Shown piece by piece: positions 29,400 through 51,276 of a stretch of 51,873 nt of DNA. The notes under the pieces were generated by a model. The model saw only the letters and a program-made list of their open reading frames with translations. It was not told the origin of the DNA and did not search any database. How positions within the stretch are numbered: the first letter of the stretch is position 1; each line of letters opens with the position of its first letter. Source of the DNA: a bacterium (GTDB lineage: Bacteria; Oederibacteriota; PGYV01). Where the stretch lies: the NCBI GenBank assembly GCA_029565735.1, contig JAKQNO010000109.1, positions 1 through 51,873 of the forward strand, in the 5' to 3' direction. Both the position numbers and the translations under genes were made by a program.

Positions 29400-30470
29400 T
29401 TAAAACAGGACATCTTCTTTAACGTACTCCGTTATATTGTGCTTCTGCTTTCCTTTTAATATGCTGTTTATTGTGTTTAAGACAAAATCAACCGGTATTT
29501 CAAGGCATGCTTTTCCGTGTTCGCACTGCGGCTCTTCGCAGCCGGCGCATGGAACGGTTTTTGTGATTATATACGCGTTTTGGCCAAGCGCGCCCCATTC
29601 CTTATAATCAGCCGCGCCCGAAAAAACAGTAAGCGATTTAACATTAAACGCGGACGCTATATGGACGGCGGCCGAATCATTGCCCACCACTATCTGCGCG
29701 CGTTTAATAAGGGAACCCATCTCCCTTACCGATATTATCCCGGACAGGTTGGAAATATTTCTGCCTTTAACCGCCAGAACCCCGCTGTCCGCCTTTGCGC
29801 CCACCACTATCACGGCCATTTTTTTGGCAAGCGCTAAGGCAAGTTCAATATAGTTTTCAAGCGGCCAGTCTTTTGAAGGATGGCCCGAAACCGGGTGCAG
29901 CACCGCAAATTTTTCCACTCCGCCTTTTTTTAAAAGCCTTATAATGTTATCTTCGCTCTGTTTTGAAACCGCAAAGTTTAACTTTACCGGGTATTTTCTG
30001 CCGGTAATGCGCTGCAGAAAAAGCATGTGTTTTTCGGTTTCGTGTATTCCCCTTTTCGGCGCCGCCATTTTTCTGTTAATGCCGAAACCCGCCCCCTTTA
30101 CGTCATAACCGTATTTTAAACGGGCGTTTGAAAGGGATAAGATAAGCGAAGACAGCCTGTCCTGCCACCGCATAGAGATAAGGGTGTCAAAACGGTATTT
30201 GTTTACAAGTTTTAAAACAGACAAAGCTGATGCAATTCTTGCCGGAAAACTTTTCTTTTCGTACGAAAGCCAGGCGGGTTTTATCACCTGTATTTCATCA
30301 AAGAAGCCAAGCCCTTCCATTGCCTCTTTGCCGGCAGGGCTTAAAAAGCCGGTTATATGCGCGTGTTTGTAATGCTGGCGCAGCCCCAAAAAAAACGGAG
30401 ACGCAAGCACCGCGTCTCCGATTCCGTCAGCTTTAATAACGCCAATTTTAATTTTTCGGTTTTTTTCCAT
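29400..30470 (-). CDS. GT9 heptosyltransferase-like glycosyltransferase
   Basis: A GT-B enzyme of 356 residues related to ADP-heptose:LPS heptosyltransferases. KADGIGDAVLASPFFLGLRQ at the N-terminus, LHPVSGHPSKDWPLENYIEL in the middle and VVGNDSAAVHIASAFN are family signatures; a cysteine-containing PCAGCEEPQCEHGKACLEIP lies near the end. GT9 enzymes usually build lipopolysaccharide core or related outer-membrane glycans, supporting a diderm cell. It is the first gene of the operon running down to the YfhO-like gene. Confidence 0.85.
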   Translation of the reverse strand: MEKNRKIKIGVIKADGIGDAVLASPFFLGLRQHYKHAHITGFLSPAGKEAMEGLGFFDEIQVIKPAWLSYEKKSFPARIASALSVLKLVNKYRFDTLISMRWQDRLSSLILSLSNARLKYGYDVKGAGFGINRKMAAPKRGIHETEKHMLFLQRITGRKYPVKLNFAVSKQSEDNIIRLLKKGGVEKFAVLHPVSGHPSKDWPLENYIELALALAKKMAVIVVGAKADSGVLAVKGRNISNLSGIISVREMGSLIKRAQIVVGNDSAAVHIASAFNVKSLTVFSGAADYKEWGALGQNAYIITKTVPCAGCEEPQCEHGKACLEIPVDFVLNTINSILKGKQKHNITEYVKEDVLF

Positions 30471-30500
30471 TACGCTCCGTTTAAAAAATAACGTTTTAGC

Positions 30501-30664
30501 GATTTAAGCAATTAAGCTATAGCGAAAACATAACACTTTTATGCTTTAGGCATATAAGCAAAAGCGATAGTTAATACGTTATTCTTCTGCTATAGCTTAT
30601 CTGCTTAATCCTCTTATGCTTATCTTTTATACTTATCGCTTATGCTTAACTGCTTATATGCTTA
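30501..30664. repeat. TGCTTA/TAAGCA-rich array with large inverted repeat between rpoD and the glycan operon
   Basis: TGCTTA occurs at 30602, 30617, 30643, 30651 and 30659, with one-base variants at 30594, 30630 and 30637. The opposite orientation (TAAGCA) appears in the left half. The segments 30501-30524 and 30589-30610 form an imperfect inverted repeat of about 22 bp. The array occupies most of the 207-base gap before the GT9 gene. Whether it is a protein-binding array or a degenerate tandem repeat cannot be decided. Confidence 0.55.
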
Positions 30665-30677
30665 ATACGCTATTTTT

Positions 30678-32420
30678 TTAGTCCATGAACCCTTTTAAAT
30701 TTTTTGCCCTGGCAGGGTGCCTTAATTTTCTCAGGGCTTTAGCCTCTATCTGCCTTACGCGTTCGCGCGTGACCTTAAAAATCTTTCCCACTTCTTCAAG
30801 GGTGTGGGGCACGCCGTCGCCTATTCCAAAACGCAGGCGCAGGACTTCCGCTTCCCTTTCTTTTAACGTGTGAAGGACCTTTTCAATCTGCTCTTTTAAG
30901 AGCACGTTAACCGCGGCAGCTGCCGGGGATATTGCATCCTTATCTTCAATAAAATCACCCAGGTGAGAATCTTTTTCCTCGCCTATCGGGGTTTCAAGCG
31001 ATATGGGGTGCTGGGAAATTTTTAAAACCGAACGCACTTTTTCCGCGGACATTCCCATCTTTTTTGCTATTTCTTCGGGTTTCGGCTCGCGCCCGTACTG
31101 CTGCACAAACTGGCGCGCCACCTTGTTTAATTTGTTTATTGTTTCTATCATGTGCACGGGTATGCGGATTGTACGCGCCTGGTCCGCGATTGCCCTTGTA
31201 ATAGCCTGCCTTATCCACCATGTGGCGTAAGTGGAAAACTTATAGCCGCGCTTGTATTCAAAACGCTCCACTGCGCGCATTAACCCGATATTGCCTTCCT
31301 GAATAAGGTCCAGGAAAGAGAGCCCTTTGTTAATGTACTTTTTGGCGATTGAAACCACAAGCCTTAAATTGGCGACAACAAGCTCTTTTCTTGTTATGCG
31401 CGCTTCAAGCATGTTCTTTTTGATTTTATAGGCAATTGATTTTAAATCCTCTTTCTTCATGCCCACAAAATCTTCTTCCCTTTTGATGCTGTTCCTAATA
31501 TCCTTTACTTCCTTCATTATTTCGTTAAACCGGTTTTTGTTCATCCTTTTCTTTTTCAAAAACTCGTTTAACTGTTTGCCGCCCTTTGATATTGATACAA
31601 GTTCCTGCGATGTTTTGCCGTATTTTTTTTCATAGACAAGAAGGTCGCGTTCATCCTTGTTTATTTTTCCGACAATGCCCATTATCTTCTTGGCGATAAG
31701 GTTTATCTGCTCGTTGTTAAGCTTAAGCATGTGAAGGTCGTCAAGTTTTTTCCTGATGTGCCTGTCGCGCACCTTTTCAAGTTTTTCCCTTCTTGCGGGC
31801 GTCAGGCTTTTCTTTTCAAGCGCGGCTTTTACCTTTGCCGCTTCTTTTTCTTTTTTGTCGGCGCTTTTGATGTATTTGCTGAAGCGGTCTATAAGCCTGT
31901 TTTCCACGGACGGCGGAATTTCGCCTTCAAGTTTTGTCTTTATTATGTCCACGATTTTTATCGTGCCCGAATGAAGGTCGTCGTCAAGCTTCTTGATTTC
32001 ATCATAGCCAATCTTTGTGTCAAATATGATGTTCTTGACGTTAATTTCCGCGGTCTCTATCTTTTTTGCTATCCTGACTTCGTCCTCGCGCCTCTCTAAA
32101 AGGGGCACCTTGCCCATTTCATGAAGGTACATCTGCACGGGGTCGGCCGAAAAACCGTCGGTGTCCGCGTCAAGATAATCGGCTTCTTCAACTTTTTCAA
32201 CGGCTTTTTCCGTATTCGCCGGCTGTTTTCCGTCTTCCTTTATTTCTATGTCAAACTCTTCCATGATATTAAGCATGTTGTCAATGTCTTCAACAGACGT
32301 AAAGTCATTTGGAAGCGAATCGTTCAACTCTTCATACGTCAAAAATCCTTTTTCTTTCCCTTTCTTTATCAGTTCCTGCACTGCCGGCATATTTTTCAAA
32401 TTCTTACTCAAGTTGTTCAC
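30678..32420 (-). CDS. rpoD: Primary sigma factor RpoD (sigma70)
   Basis: Housekeeping sigma factor. Region 1.1-like start ([20 protein letters not shown]), region 1.2 ([20 protein letters not shown]), then a non-conserved insert rich in Lys/Glu. Region 2 is diagnostic: [40 protein letters not shown]. Region 4 holds [20 protein letters not shown]. The consensus -35/-10 boxes elsewhere in the window fit such a factor. The start is ambiguous: GTG 32420 overlaps its own GAGG, while TTG 32411 has better spacing. It overlaps dnaG, so translation is coupled. It is the last gene of the operon. Confidence 0.96.
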
Positions 32421-45007: not shown

Positions 45008-45607
45008 ATGGGATACAAAGCAGCCAGGGACGGCCTGAAAAAGTTCTTTGAAAATGCAATGGTGCCTTTACTTGTACTTTTAAATAAATTGCATATTACA
45101 CCCAATTTTATCACCTGGGTTGGGCTTATTATTAATTTAGCAGGTGCTTTCCTTATATATAAGGGATTTTTTGTATGGGGCGCTTTGGTTATTATATTTG
45201 CCAGCATTTTTGACATGATAGACGGCTCCCTTGCCAGATATACCAACCAGAAATCAAAATTCGGCGGATTTCTTGATTCCGTGACCGACAGGATATCAGA
45301 AGGCGCCCTTTACCTGGCTCTTCTAATGTATTATCTGAACCTTGAAGTGCCGGATAAAACAGCTGTGATTTTATGTTATGTTGTCGTGTTTTCATCTTTC
45401 CTTGTAAGCTATTTACGGGCGCGCGCGGGCGGGCTGAAAATAGACTGTTCCGGCGGAATTTTTACGCGCCCGGAGCGTATGGTTGTAATTTTACTTGGGC
45501 TTTTAATTAATCAGGCGGTCCCGGCGCTGTGGATTATGGCTGTTTTATCCATAGTAACGGTTATTCAGCGGTTTTTGCTTGTCAACGAACAGGCAAAACA
45601 TATTTAA
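45008..45607 (+). CDS. pgsA: Phosphatidylinositol-phosphate synthase-like CDP-alcohol phosphotransferase
   Basis: Condenses CDP-diacylglycerol with an alcohol phosphate in the inner membrane. The 199-residue protein has the complete motif D69-x2-D72-G-x2-A-R77-x8-G86-x3-D90-x3-D94 and about six helices. Unlike glycerol-phosphate enzymes it carries SYLRARAGG followed by GGIFTRPERMVVI, which from memory closely matches the actinobacterial PIP synthase PgsA1 segment that binds inositol phosphate. The next gene, 27 bases on, encodes Ino1, which makes that substrate. ATG 45008 is chosen over 44963 because the promoter lies between them. The ribosome site AAGGGAG has long spacing. Confidence 0.85.
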   Translation: MGYKAARDGLKKFFENAMVPLLVLLNKLHITPNFITWVGLIINLAGAFLIYKGFFVWGALVIIFASIFDMIDGSLARYTNQKSKFGGFLDSVTDRISEGALYLALLMYYLNLEVPDKTAVILCYVVVFSSFLVSYLRARAGGLKIDCSGGIFTRPERMVVILLGLLINQAVPALWIMAVLSIVTVIQRFLLVNEQAKHI

Positions 45608-45634: not shown

Positions 45635-46765
45635 ATGGCAAAGATCAGAATGGCAATTGCAGGTTTAGGCAACTGCGCCTGGTCCCTTATGCAGGGGCTG
45701 GAGTTTTACAGGGATGTACAGGACAGCACGTTTATCCCCGGACTTATGAACGCCAACCTTGGGGGATACAGGGTGCGCGACATTGAACTTGTCGCGGCTT
45801 TTGACGTGGACAGCAATAAGGTCGGCAAAGACGTAAAGGACGCGCTGGAAGCCCTTCCCAACAACACCATTGAATTCGCTAAGATGAAAAAGACCGGTGT
45901 GAAATGCATGAGGGGCCCGACACTGGACGGCCTTGGCAAGTATTACAGGGAAGTTGTTACAGAATCAGACGAAATTCCGGTGGATGTGGCAAAGGTATTA
46001 AAGGAAAAGAAAGTGGACGTGCTTGTAAGCTACATGCCTGTAGGGTCCGAAGAAGCTGTACAGTATTATGCCAACTGCGCGCTTGAGGCAAAATGCGCGT
46101 TTGTAAATGCCATCCCGGTTTTCATCGCTTCAAAGCCGGAATGGGCCGAGAAATTCAAGAAAGCCGGAATTCCTATTATCGGCGATGACATCAAATCACA
46201 GGTCGGCGCCACGATAGTTCACAGGGTTTTAACCCAGCTTTTCGGCGACAGGGGCGTAAACATACTGCGCACCTATCAGATTAACTTTGGCGGCAACATG
46301 GACTTTAAAAACATGCTTGAACGCGAACGCCTGTATTCAAAAAAGATTTCAAAAACAAATGCTGTTTTGTCAGCAATGCAGAACGACATTGACAGCAAAG
46401 AAGACGTGCACGTGGGGCCTTCTGACCACATCCCATGGCTTAAGGACCGCAAATGGTGCCACATAAGGATGGAAGGCGAAAACTTCGGCGGCGTCCCTTT
46501 GAACCTTGAATTAAAGCTGGAAGTCTGGGATTCGCCCAACAGCGCCGGCGTTATTATTGACGCGGTGCGCTGCGCCAAAATAGCGCTTGATAAAAAGATA
46601 GGCGGAATCCTTGAAGGGCCTTCGGCTTACTTCATGAAGACGCCCCCTGTTCAGTACGACGACAACATAGCAAAACAGATGGTCCAGAAATTTGTGGACA
46701 GCAAACAGACATCAGTAAAGAAATCCGCGAAAAAAGCGGTAAAAAAATCTTCAAAGAAGAAATAA
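45635..46765 (+). CDS. ino1: Myo-inositol-1-phosphate synthase (actinobacterial/archaeal type)
   Basis: Converts glucose-6-phosphate to inositol-1-phosphate with NAD. A 376-residue short-form enzyme: [41 protein letters not shown], and the active-site region [20 protein letters not shown] with [19 protein letters not shown]. It resembles Mycobacterium and archaeal Ino1 rather than the longer eukaryotic form. An AGGAGGAG ribosome site precedes the ATG. The C-terminus ends in a lysine-rich tail of about 17 residues ([15 protein letters not shown]) not expected in the family. The next gene begins directly after its stop codon. Confidence 0.95.
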
Positions 46766-47614
46766 ATGTACCGCCTGCTTAAATTTACAGGCATGCTGTT
46801 AAAAAATATCCCGCGTAAAGCGGGATATTTTTTTTTCAGCCTTATAGCTTATTTTGCTTTTCTGGCAGGAGGCCCCAGAAAAGAGACGCTTAAACAAAAT
46901 TTAAGCCGCATAACCGGAAAAAATCCTGACAGTAAAACTCTTTGGCAGAATTACCGGAATTACGCCATGTATTACTTTGACCTTTTTAAAGACAAAAAGA
47001 AACTTGCGGAAAGTTTTGACATGAAATCTTTTGAACCGCTTGCGGCGTCCGTTAAACAGAATCTTGATAAAGGCGCGCCCATGATAGTAACCACAATGCA
47101 CTATGGCAACTGGGACTTAGGCGGAGCCATACTGTCTTACTTTTTCCCCGGTAAAGTCACGGTGGTTGTGGAAGAGCTGTCAGGCGGCGCCTACAAATGG
47201 TTCACGGAAACAAGAAGCAGCTGGGGCATGAACGTCATAAAATCCACGGATGTTAAGGCTATGTTAAGGGTTTTAAAATCAGGCGGCATACTTGTGCTTG
47301 TATCTGACAGGGACCTTGAAAAAACAGGTTTTAATCCCCTGTTCTTCGGAAAAAAAGCTTATATCCCGTCAGGGCCGGCCAAACTTTCGCTTATGTCAGG
47401 GGCTCCGATACTTTTTGGAGTATTTAAACGCCTCCCTGACAATCCTTTAAAATACTCTGTGTTTTGGGATAATACCCTGATAAACAACGAAAAACTGGCA
47501 AGAACCCCTGAAAACGAGGAAAAAATTACAGGAGAACTTGTTTCAAAATTTGAAGCTGTTTTAAAACAGGACCCGTCGCAGTGGTGCATGCTGCAGAAGG
47601 TATGGCTGGAATAA
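46766..47614 (+). CDS. LpxL/PatA-type lysophospholipid acyltransferase 1
   Basis: Membrane-bound acyltransferase of the HtrB/LpxL superfamily, 282 residues. The N-terminal helix leads to the catalytic H112-x4-D117 (TTMHYGNWDLGGA), then RSSWGMNVIKSTD and SDRDLEKTGFNPLFFG. In mycobacteria the equivalent PatA acylates the mannose of phosphatidylinositol mannoside; LpxL enzymes acylate lipid A. Between ino1 and a PimA-like gene, the PatA role is favoured. Its ATG is immediately after the ino1 stop with no separate ribosome site, and a terminator-like hairpin lies in codons 12-24. Confidence 0.85.
   Translation: MYRLLKFTGMLLKNIPRKAGYFFFSLIAYFAFLAGGPRKETLKQNLSRITGKNPDSKTLWQNYRNYAMYYFDLFKDKKKLAESFDMKSFEPLAASVKQNLDKGAPMIVTTMHYGNWDLGGAILSYFFPGKVTVVVEELSGGAYKWFTETRSSWGMNVIKSTDVKAMLRVLKSGGILVLVSDRDLEKTGFNPLFFGKKAYIPSGPAKLSLMSGAPILFGVFKRLPDNPLKYSVFWDNTLINNEKLARTPENEEKITGELVSKFEAVLKQDPSQWCMLQKVWLE
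46802..46836 (+). terminator. Intrinsic terminator/attenuator inside the acyltransferase start
   Basis: AAAAATATCCCGC (46802-46814), a 5-base loop and the exact complement (46820-46832), followed by Ts to 46836 (nine in total). It is positioned 36 bases after the ino1 stop codon. Because it is also translated as residues 12-24 of the acyltransferase, active ribosomes should suppress it. Confidence 0.75.
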
Positions 47615-51208: not shown

Positions 51209-51233
51209 AAACAAAATCAAAATATTTCAAATA

Positions 51234-51263
51234 AAAAAGGCCGGCATTTCTGCCGGCCTTTTT
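51234..51263. terminator. Bidirectional intrinsic terminator after pckG
   Basis: AAAAAGGCCGGCA (51234-51246) and its exact complement (51251-51263) around a TTTC loop, with A and T runs on both sides. It lies 13 bases past the minus-strand PEPCK stop and can also stop plus-strand transcripts coming from the PHP gene. Confidence 0.85.
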
Positions 51264-51276
51264 GTTTATGTATTAA

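Follow-up and report, generated by a model that had tools for sequence, protein, structure and literature searches.

A predicted intrinsic terminator of ino1 within the first codons of the adjoining acyltransferase gene in Goldbacteria

Analysis of the junction between ino1 and the acyltransferase gene acyl1 indicates that a hairpin in the first codons of acyl1 is probably an intrinsic terminator of the ino1 transcript, and its codon choices argue that the element is selected as nucleotide sequence, beyond the peptide alone. The window, that is, the whole stretch of DNA that was analysed, comprises the 51,873 nucleotides of contig JAKQNO010000109.1 (assembly GCA_029565735.1). The sequence-only reading had proposed that the hairpin is an attenuator melted by ribosomes that continue from ino1. 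A selected, terminator-shaped element in translated codons at a conserved junction was supported by our data; a readthrough decided by the ribosome arriving from ino1 was not, given that no alternative pairing was seen and given the distance data from E. coli. The genes and elements of the junction are as follows.

45008..45607, + strand: CDP-alcohol phosphatidyltransferase, PIP-synthase-like (PF01066; NCBIfam PIPSynth 162.5 bits against a cut-off of 170)
45635..46765, + strand: ino1, inositol-3-phosphate synthase (PF01658; TIGR03450 E 3e-167, below its cut-off)
46766..47614, + strand: acyl1, Lip_A_acyltrans family, 282 aa (PF03279 E 6e-30; NF005919 139.7 bits against a cut-off of 209)
46766..46801, + strand: acyl1 codons 1-12, with a small GCCTG...CAGGC inverted repeat at 46773-46792
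46802..46814, + strand: 5' arm of the putative terminator stem, A-tract plus TATCCCGC (sequence, folding, alignment)
46815..46819, + strand: loop GTAAA, variable among species (GTAAA/GTTCC/GTACA/GGAAA/GCAGA)
46820..46832, + strand: 3' arm of the putative terminator stem, GCGGGATA plus T (sequence, folding, alignment)
46828..46836, + strand: T-tract of nine T, mostly Phe codons; expected 3' end of the ino1 transcript

The cluster runs in the order PIP-synthase-like gene, ino1, acyltransferase 1, GT4, acyltransferase 2 and a gene for a PHP protein. All six form one group in G000, and they were also found in 9 of the 11 further genomes that have an acyl1 ortholog; in the remaining two (G006 and G007), where the contig end cuts ino1, the cluster was located from ino1 onwards only. 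The closest curated model to acyl1 is a PI-mannoside acyltransferase, with a score under the cut-off of that model, and because of this score we propose a PIM-like lipid pathway for the cluster only as a putative assignment. The ino1 gene has a strong Shine-Dalgarno-like AGGAGG upstream in the sequence. Its C-terminus (window 46700-46762) carries a Lys/Ser-rich tail in the genus that is missing from the orthologs of family f6.

The ino1 stop codon TAA occupies 46763-46765 and the acyl1 ATG begins at 46766, with a gap of 0 nt, so the sequence confirmed the earlier placement of the stem start 36 nt past the ino1 stop, inside a frame that opens directly after it. The hairpin had been assigned to codons 12-24; it does lie within the early acyl1 codons, which are codons 13-24. 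The earlier description of a perfect 13-bp stem followed by nine T was partly correct: the 13 pairs and the 5-nt loop are there, and five of the nine T are already counted in these pairs, opposite the A-tract. The element can thus be counted either as 13 bp followed by 4 T or as an 8-bp core (TATCCCGC/GCGGGATA) followed by nine T, and the stem and T counts cannot be added because they overlap by five T-A pairs. On either count it has the shape of an intrinsic terminator, with a G+C-rich hairpin, a short loop and a T-tract directly after.

Folding of positions 46795-46845 gave -25.1 kcal/mol (z = -8.06), a value reached by 0 of 200 shuffles. Allowing up to 3 mismatches, the window contains one match to the pattern ATATCCCGC-N5-GCGGGATAT, against 0.04 expected, and TATCCCGC-N3..8-GCGGGATA is found in a single place in the genome of origin. 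When 100 or 200 nt of upstream sequence were added, the nine core stem pairs kept a mean probability of at least 0.99 in 7/7 hairpin genomes, the lowest single pair being 0.936. These probabilities near 1 give no sign of an upstream antiterminator competing for the stem in the seven hairpin genomes, as folded with 100-200 nt of upstream sequence.

Several other identities were set aside. No Rfam family matched the window at its gathering score, which speaks against a known riboswitch, T-box or ribosomal protein leader. The single exact copy per genome rules out an operator for a transcription factor and a dispersed or mobile repeat. Misplacement of the acyl1 start codon was rejected, as orthologs without the hairpin keep the peptide across the hairpin region, and the G000 gene has no in-frame ATG, GTG or TTG between the hairpin and codon 68. 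Polymerase slippage on the nine T was set aside because the T run is interrupted in G010 and G011.

To explore the conservation of the hairpin, we compared 14 genomes of the order, 12 of which have an acyl1 ortholog; the best matches in G003 and G004 (E 3e-9 and 1e-7) were not clear orthologs. The sequence-only reading had made conservation of the junction in related genomes a decisive point, and the answer was divided: the exact hairpin is kept in 7/12 orthologs, namely in all three genomes of the genus (f1: G000, G001, G002) and in family f6 (G010, G011, G012, G013), and the orthologs of f4 and f5 keep the peptide core without it. There is one exact copy in each of 7 of the 14 genomes, always at the acyl1 start; the other matches all have three mismatches (one in G000, three in G013). 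The acyl1 protein of the window is 41-49% identical to those of f6, and in the stem, N, I, P, A, G, Y and F are each encoded by an identical codon in 7/7 hairpin genomes. Among stem codons for invariant residues, 7/8 are codon-identical in the seven genomes, the eighth being an Arg codon that differs at its third base only, in the loop, whereas beyond codon 26 of acyl1 only 4/55 are (Fisher P 4e-6, for related genomes whose codon counts are non-independent trials). Codon identity in the five other cluster genes is 11-18%. The loop codon encodes different residues across species (K, S, T or R). With the peptide fixed as NIPRxAGY and codons drawn as in the six cluster genes, a small sample per genome, the six codon choices behind the Watson-Crick pairs of the core would arise by chance with a probability of 0.0002-0.0014 per hairpin genome, or 0.0009-0.0036 if G-U pairs are allowed.

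The outermost stem pair is the only one that varies: in G010 and G011, changes on both sides (K to Q with F to V) turn A-U into C-G. This single pair gave a covariation score that 25/500 shuffles equalled. The case for a selected structure in acyl1, as read from these alignments, rests on codon identity. The five f4 and f5 orthologs, which have A+T-rich codon usage, retain IPR..GY with other codons, and no comparable hairpin was found from -150 to +250 of their acyl1 genes; because of this, peptide and hairpin appear as separate constraints. The gene order is retained in these genomes where it is visible, and the acyl1 hairpin is therefore dispensable. In the ino1 tree the hairpin genomes stand on one side of a branch with support 68/98, which is compatible both with a gain and with losses.

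A second candidate terminator embedded in coding sequence lies elsewhere in the window, behind rpoD.

30678-32420, - strand: rpoD
29400..30470, - strand: GT9 (heptosyltransferase-like) gene, downstream of rpoD, hosting the second element
30388..30420, - strand: second putative coding-embedded terminator, CGGAGACGC...GCGTCTCCG followed by T8, in GT9 codons

The stem CGGAGACGC/GCGTCTCCG stands about 50 nt from the start of GT9, which is preceded by rpoD in 12/12 loci; G004 and G009, which have distant relatives only (E about 1e-24), are outside these 12 orthologs. All nine pairs form in 9/12 orthologs (f1, f2, f6 and G006 of f4). There is one mismatch in G005, one in G008 and two in G007, so that the stem is mismatched in 3/4 genomes of f4 and f5, the same two families without the acyl1 hairpin. 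Both G007 mismatches come from residue changes (G to R and A to T), and its three third-position pairs form. In the alignment of 11 of the 12 orthologs (G007 left out), 97.8% of cells are paired and 8 cells changed on both sides. The covariation score was reached by 0/500 shuffles; two of the five measures were within the shuffles (both-side changes 69/500, pair types 404/500). As the peptide GDA..ASP alone fixes six of the eight inner pairs, only the third-position pairs count as evidence for structure. These covary at I-P (C-G, A-U), G-S (A-U, G-C, G-U) and D-A (C-G, U-A), and 32/33 of them are formed, or 35/36 with G007. The acyl1 evidence is independent of this pairing count.

Between the rpoD stop and about codon 35 of GT9, the hairpin is the sole terminator-like structure in 10/12 loci; none was found in this interval in G005, and G007 was left out of the scan. 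No comparable hairpin was seen in distant GT9 relatives from other families, in 9 motif-search segments from 16 loci. Across 11 relatives, 51 to 264 nt separate the IGD motif from the rpoD stop. By eye, the rpoD-GT9 intergenic region (window 30480-30677, - strand) is rich in short AAGCATAA / TTAAGC-like repeats.

That the acyl1 and GT9 elements would terminate transcription, beyond forming hairpins, is suggested by their shape and by the codons of their T-tracts, these two lines only. The tract codons are those for Phe, Val and Leu, and in the four f6 genomes the T-richer choice was taken in 21/22 codons of the two tracts against 9.1 expected (background in the f6 cluster genes: Phe is TTT in 40-54% of cases and Leu is TTR in 15-34%). 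The preference near gene starts, as sized in G001 (TTT 0.81 vs 0.79, TTR 0.41 vs 0.29), is too small to explain this bias. In the seven hairpin sequences, as read from the alignment, the + strand carries the longer T-run of the two strands. Ordinary terminators of the same shape follow stop codons in the same genomes or genus. A canonical bidirectional intergenic terminator at window 51228-51269 provides a local yardstick for this genome. Among genomes with no clear acyl1 ortholog, an ordinary terminator lies 12-38 nt past the ino1 stop in 4/8 (G004, G035, G040 and G043); the remaining four have no or only a weak hairpin within 300 nt of the ino1 stop.

We propose that the majority of polymerases that transcribe past ino1 would halt near 46837, and that a read-through minority would produce the message for the acyltransferase and for those downstream genes that lack a promoter of their own. 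The outcome would be a high ratio of ino1 to acyltransferase. Termination in vivo, its strength and the ratio as the target of selection are what we infer from the sequence. The rpoD-GT9 junction would follow the same design, with the terminator of the upstream gene limiting downstream transcription.

The stem starts 36-41 nt past the ino1 stop in all seven hairpin genomes. In the sections of Li et al. 2015 (PMC4824070) drawn on here, ribosomes repress an E. coli terminator only within about 27-30 nt of the stop codon; farther away, it reaches its maximal efficiency of ~0.9. By this yardstick, the conserved spacing places the stem slightly too far away for a ribosome halted at the ino1 stop to cover it. 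The same data lead us to predict strong termination whether or not acyl1 is translated, and, because good termination is predicted, we prefer a constitutive partial terminator over a switch.

An unlikely alternative is the translation-coupled attenuator of the sequence-only reading, in which a ribosome re-initiating at the adjoining start covers the 5' arm and the polymerase passes, and in which transcription otherwise stops. It agrees with the acyl1 frame opening at the ino1 stop in f1 (0 nt) and with the likely acyl1 starts in f6, which are a few nt from the ino1 stop (non-ATG starts were inferred in G010-G012). The nucleotide identity of the f1 leader, as if the leader mattered, is a further point in its favor, and the inverted repeat there could be a pause site. 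We keep this reading open because acyl1 codons 1-12 are identical at 36/36 nt across the three genomes of the genus; between start and stem, 10/10 codons are identical versus 82/165 later in acyl1. This identity is not seen in f6, where only 3/6 leader codons are identical, and no competing antiterminator structure was found. In addition, translation took only ~10% off the efficiency of an E. coli terminator placed 30 bp into a frame, and those more than 27-30 nt past a stop were unrepressed, in the portion of PMC4824070 considered. The gap between the rpoD stop and the likely GT9 start (about 0-216 nt in 11 loci) indicates that tight coupling is not general. Ribosome re-initiation at TAAATG could still matter. 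Apart from these readings, the GCCTG/CAGGC inverted repeat of the f1 leader is a possible pause or leader element.

We regard as improbable that the conserved structure serves another RNA role, such as shielding the processed 3' end of the ino1 message, being cut by an RNase, or making the ribosome pause while the hydrophobic N-terminal segment inserts into the membrane. A conserved structure fits any RNA role; however, the codon preference in the T-tracts and the second case in GT9 point to termination, the GT9 host segment GDAVLASP not looking, by eye, like a membrane anchor.

It is also highly improbable that the element works as a non-stop device like those of brfA and arfA, which would yield stop-less messages, tmRNA rescue and destruction of the ino1 message, so that the capacity for trans-translation feeds back on inositol phosphate supply. 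The first steps follow from the anatomy if the element, a terminator by its shape, works, since its messages would lack a stop codon in the acyl1 frame and call on tmRNA. A tmRNA is present in the genome of the window (176 bits, over the cut-off), and 9/14 genomes have one over the cut-off. In the E. coli experiments, as described in the parts of PMC4824070 cited here, a terminator 30 bp past the start cut expression of the gene before it by about half, an effect that the authors connect with non-stop decay, and brfA is a proven case in the portion of PMC6881298 used. On the other hand, truncation at about codon 24 of 282, in a protein whose family domain extends to residue 281, leaves a product without obvious function, unlike BrfA, and we saw no sign of selection for such a feedback.

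Coincidence, in which a palindrome arises by accident from the peptide NIPRKAGYFFF, with codon usage adding the rest, hardly seems credible: the IPR..GY core occurs in 12/12 orthologs, with or without the hairpin, and its constraint already fixes part of the pairing, yet the codon-choice chance per genome and a stem codon identity far above that of the rest of acyl1 both speak against it.

A terminator inside a gene is already known, from brfA and from mapped ORF-internal 3' ends in several bacteria, to judge from the sections of these sources drawn on here. In brfA (Bacillus subtilis) and arfA (Escherichia coli), a hairpin in translated codons ends the message early, as proposed for acyl1 (PMC6881298, PMC8012679), and in brfA a synonymous mutation of the hairpin restored downstream expression (PMC6881298). 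The brfA terminator, as far as these sources were considered, sits around codon 62 of 71, late in a short gene, and its truncated product is functional, whereas the acyl1 and GT9 elements are near the starts of full-length genes. In the pyrBI-type leader-peptide attenuators (PMC4824070, in the part cited), the terminator also overlaps a translated frame, with ribosome-dependent use possible; there, however, the frame is a short leader, while acyl1 is a structural gene in which no antiterminator was found. Construct W48, in the cited part of the same paper, has nearly the geometry of acyl1, with a terminator 30 bp inside a second frame located behind a stop codon, and it terminates efficiently; these constructs carry an engineered lambda tR2 in E. 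coli, and the acyl1 site is conserved and natural. The partial terminators between operon genes covered in that part would have the same effect on ratios as proposed here, but the one in acyl1 sits inside the downstream coding sequence.

Transcripts that end inside genes, as proposed for acyl1, were reported for E. coli (PMC7815308), P. aeruginosa (PMC8297930) and Borrelia (PMC10319736). Those are mapped ends for which no conservation of the hairpin across families was seen in the sections drawn on, and the acyl1 and GT9 ends are predicted from conservation. In the literature searched, we did not find a start-proximal terminator in a full-length gene that is conserved across families with paired changes, and we do not claim its absence from print.

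A search for more embedded terminators, covering the window and sampled parts of G000 and G001 (621 kb), revealed 8 strong sense hairpins inside called ORFs: those of acyl1 and GT9 in both genomes, and four in doubtful ORFs or before the likely start. A survey of G001 (1.61 Mb, 1250 called ORFs of at least 100 aa) detected 8 sense sites with hairpin and T-tract in the first 150 nt of ORFs, where 20 synonymous shuffles gave 1.5 on average and 4 at most; strong start-proximal sites numbered 6, against 0.30 on average and 1 at most in the shuffles. On inspection, two of the G001 sites (L141 and L144) were probably 5' untranslated and two (L173 and L189) were weak. The tatC site (L186) is variable within the genus and absent further out (8/11 loci scanned, 5 readable). 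The cinA site has a weak T-tract; it is kept in the three genomes of the genus and absent in four other loci that were read (8/14 loci scanned, 7 readable). The N-terminal codons of cinA (L247, L248 and L249) form a GC-rich hairpin, ACGGCCGGCG-ACAA-CGCCGGCCGT, identical in those three genomes. A large class of start-proximal terminators was rejected, and only acyl1 and GT9 stand after inspection.

For the Goldbacteria order, we tentatively suggest, as a somewhat doubtful generalization, that the terminators of some housekeeping genes, lodged near the start of the next envelope gene (ino1 into the acyltransferase, rpoD into GT9), would do double duty, ending the upstream message and making downstream expression conditional on read-through. 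This expression would possibly be raised by immediate re-initiation, and non-stop messages would tie the stability of the upstream message to tmRNA rescue. Such elements would represent a conserved class of start-proximal attenuators embedded in coding sequence, under a dual constraint on protein and RNA.

At two junctions, comparative evidence alone told an in-gene terminator candidate in a full-length gene from chance, in a group whose records here are all metagenome-assembled. The conserved spacing, outside the reach of the ribosome, fits a quantitative model measured in E. coli. If the interpretation is true, gene callers and operon predictors that ignore in-gene hairpins would miss real transcript ends, and these junctions would offer natural material for studying how ribosome and polymerase coexist on a gene's first hundred bases. 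These data suggest that bacteria of the order may hide stop signals inside working genes.
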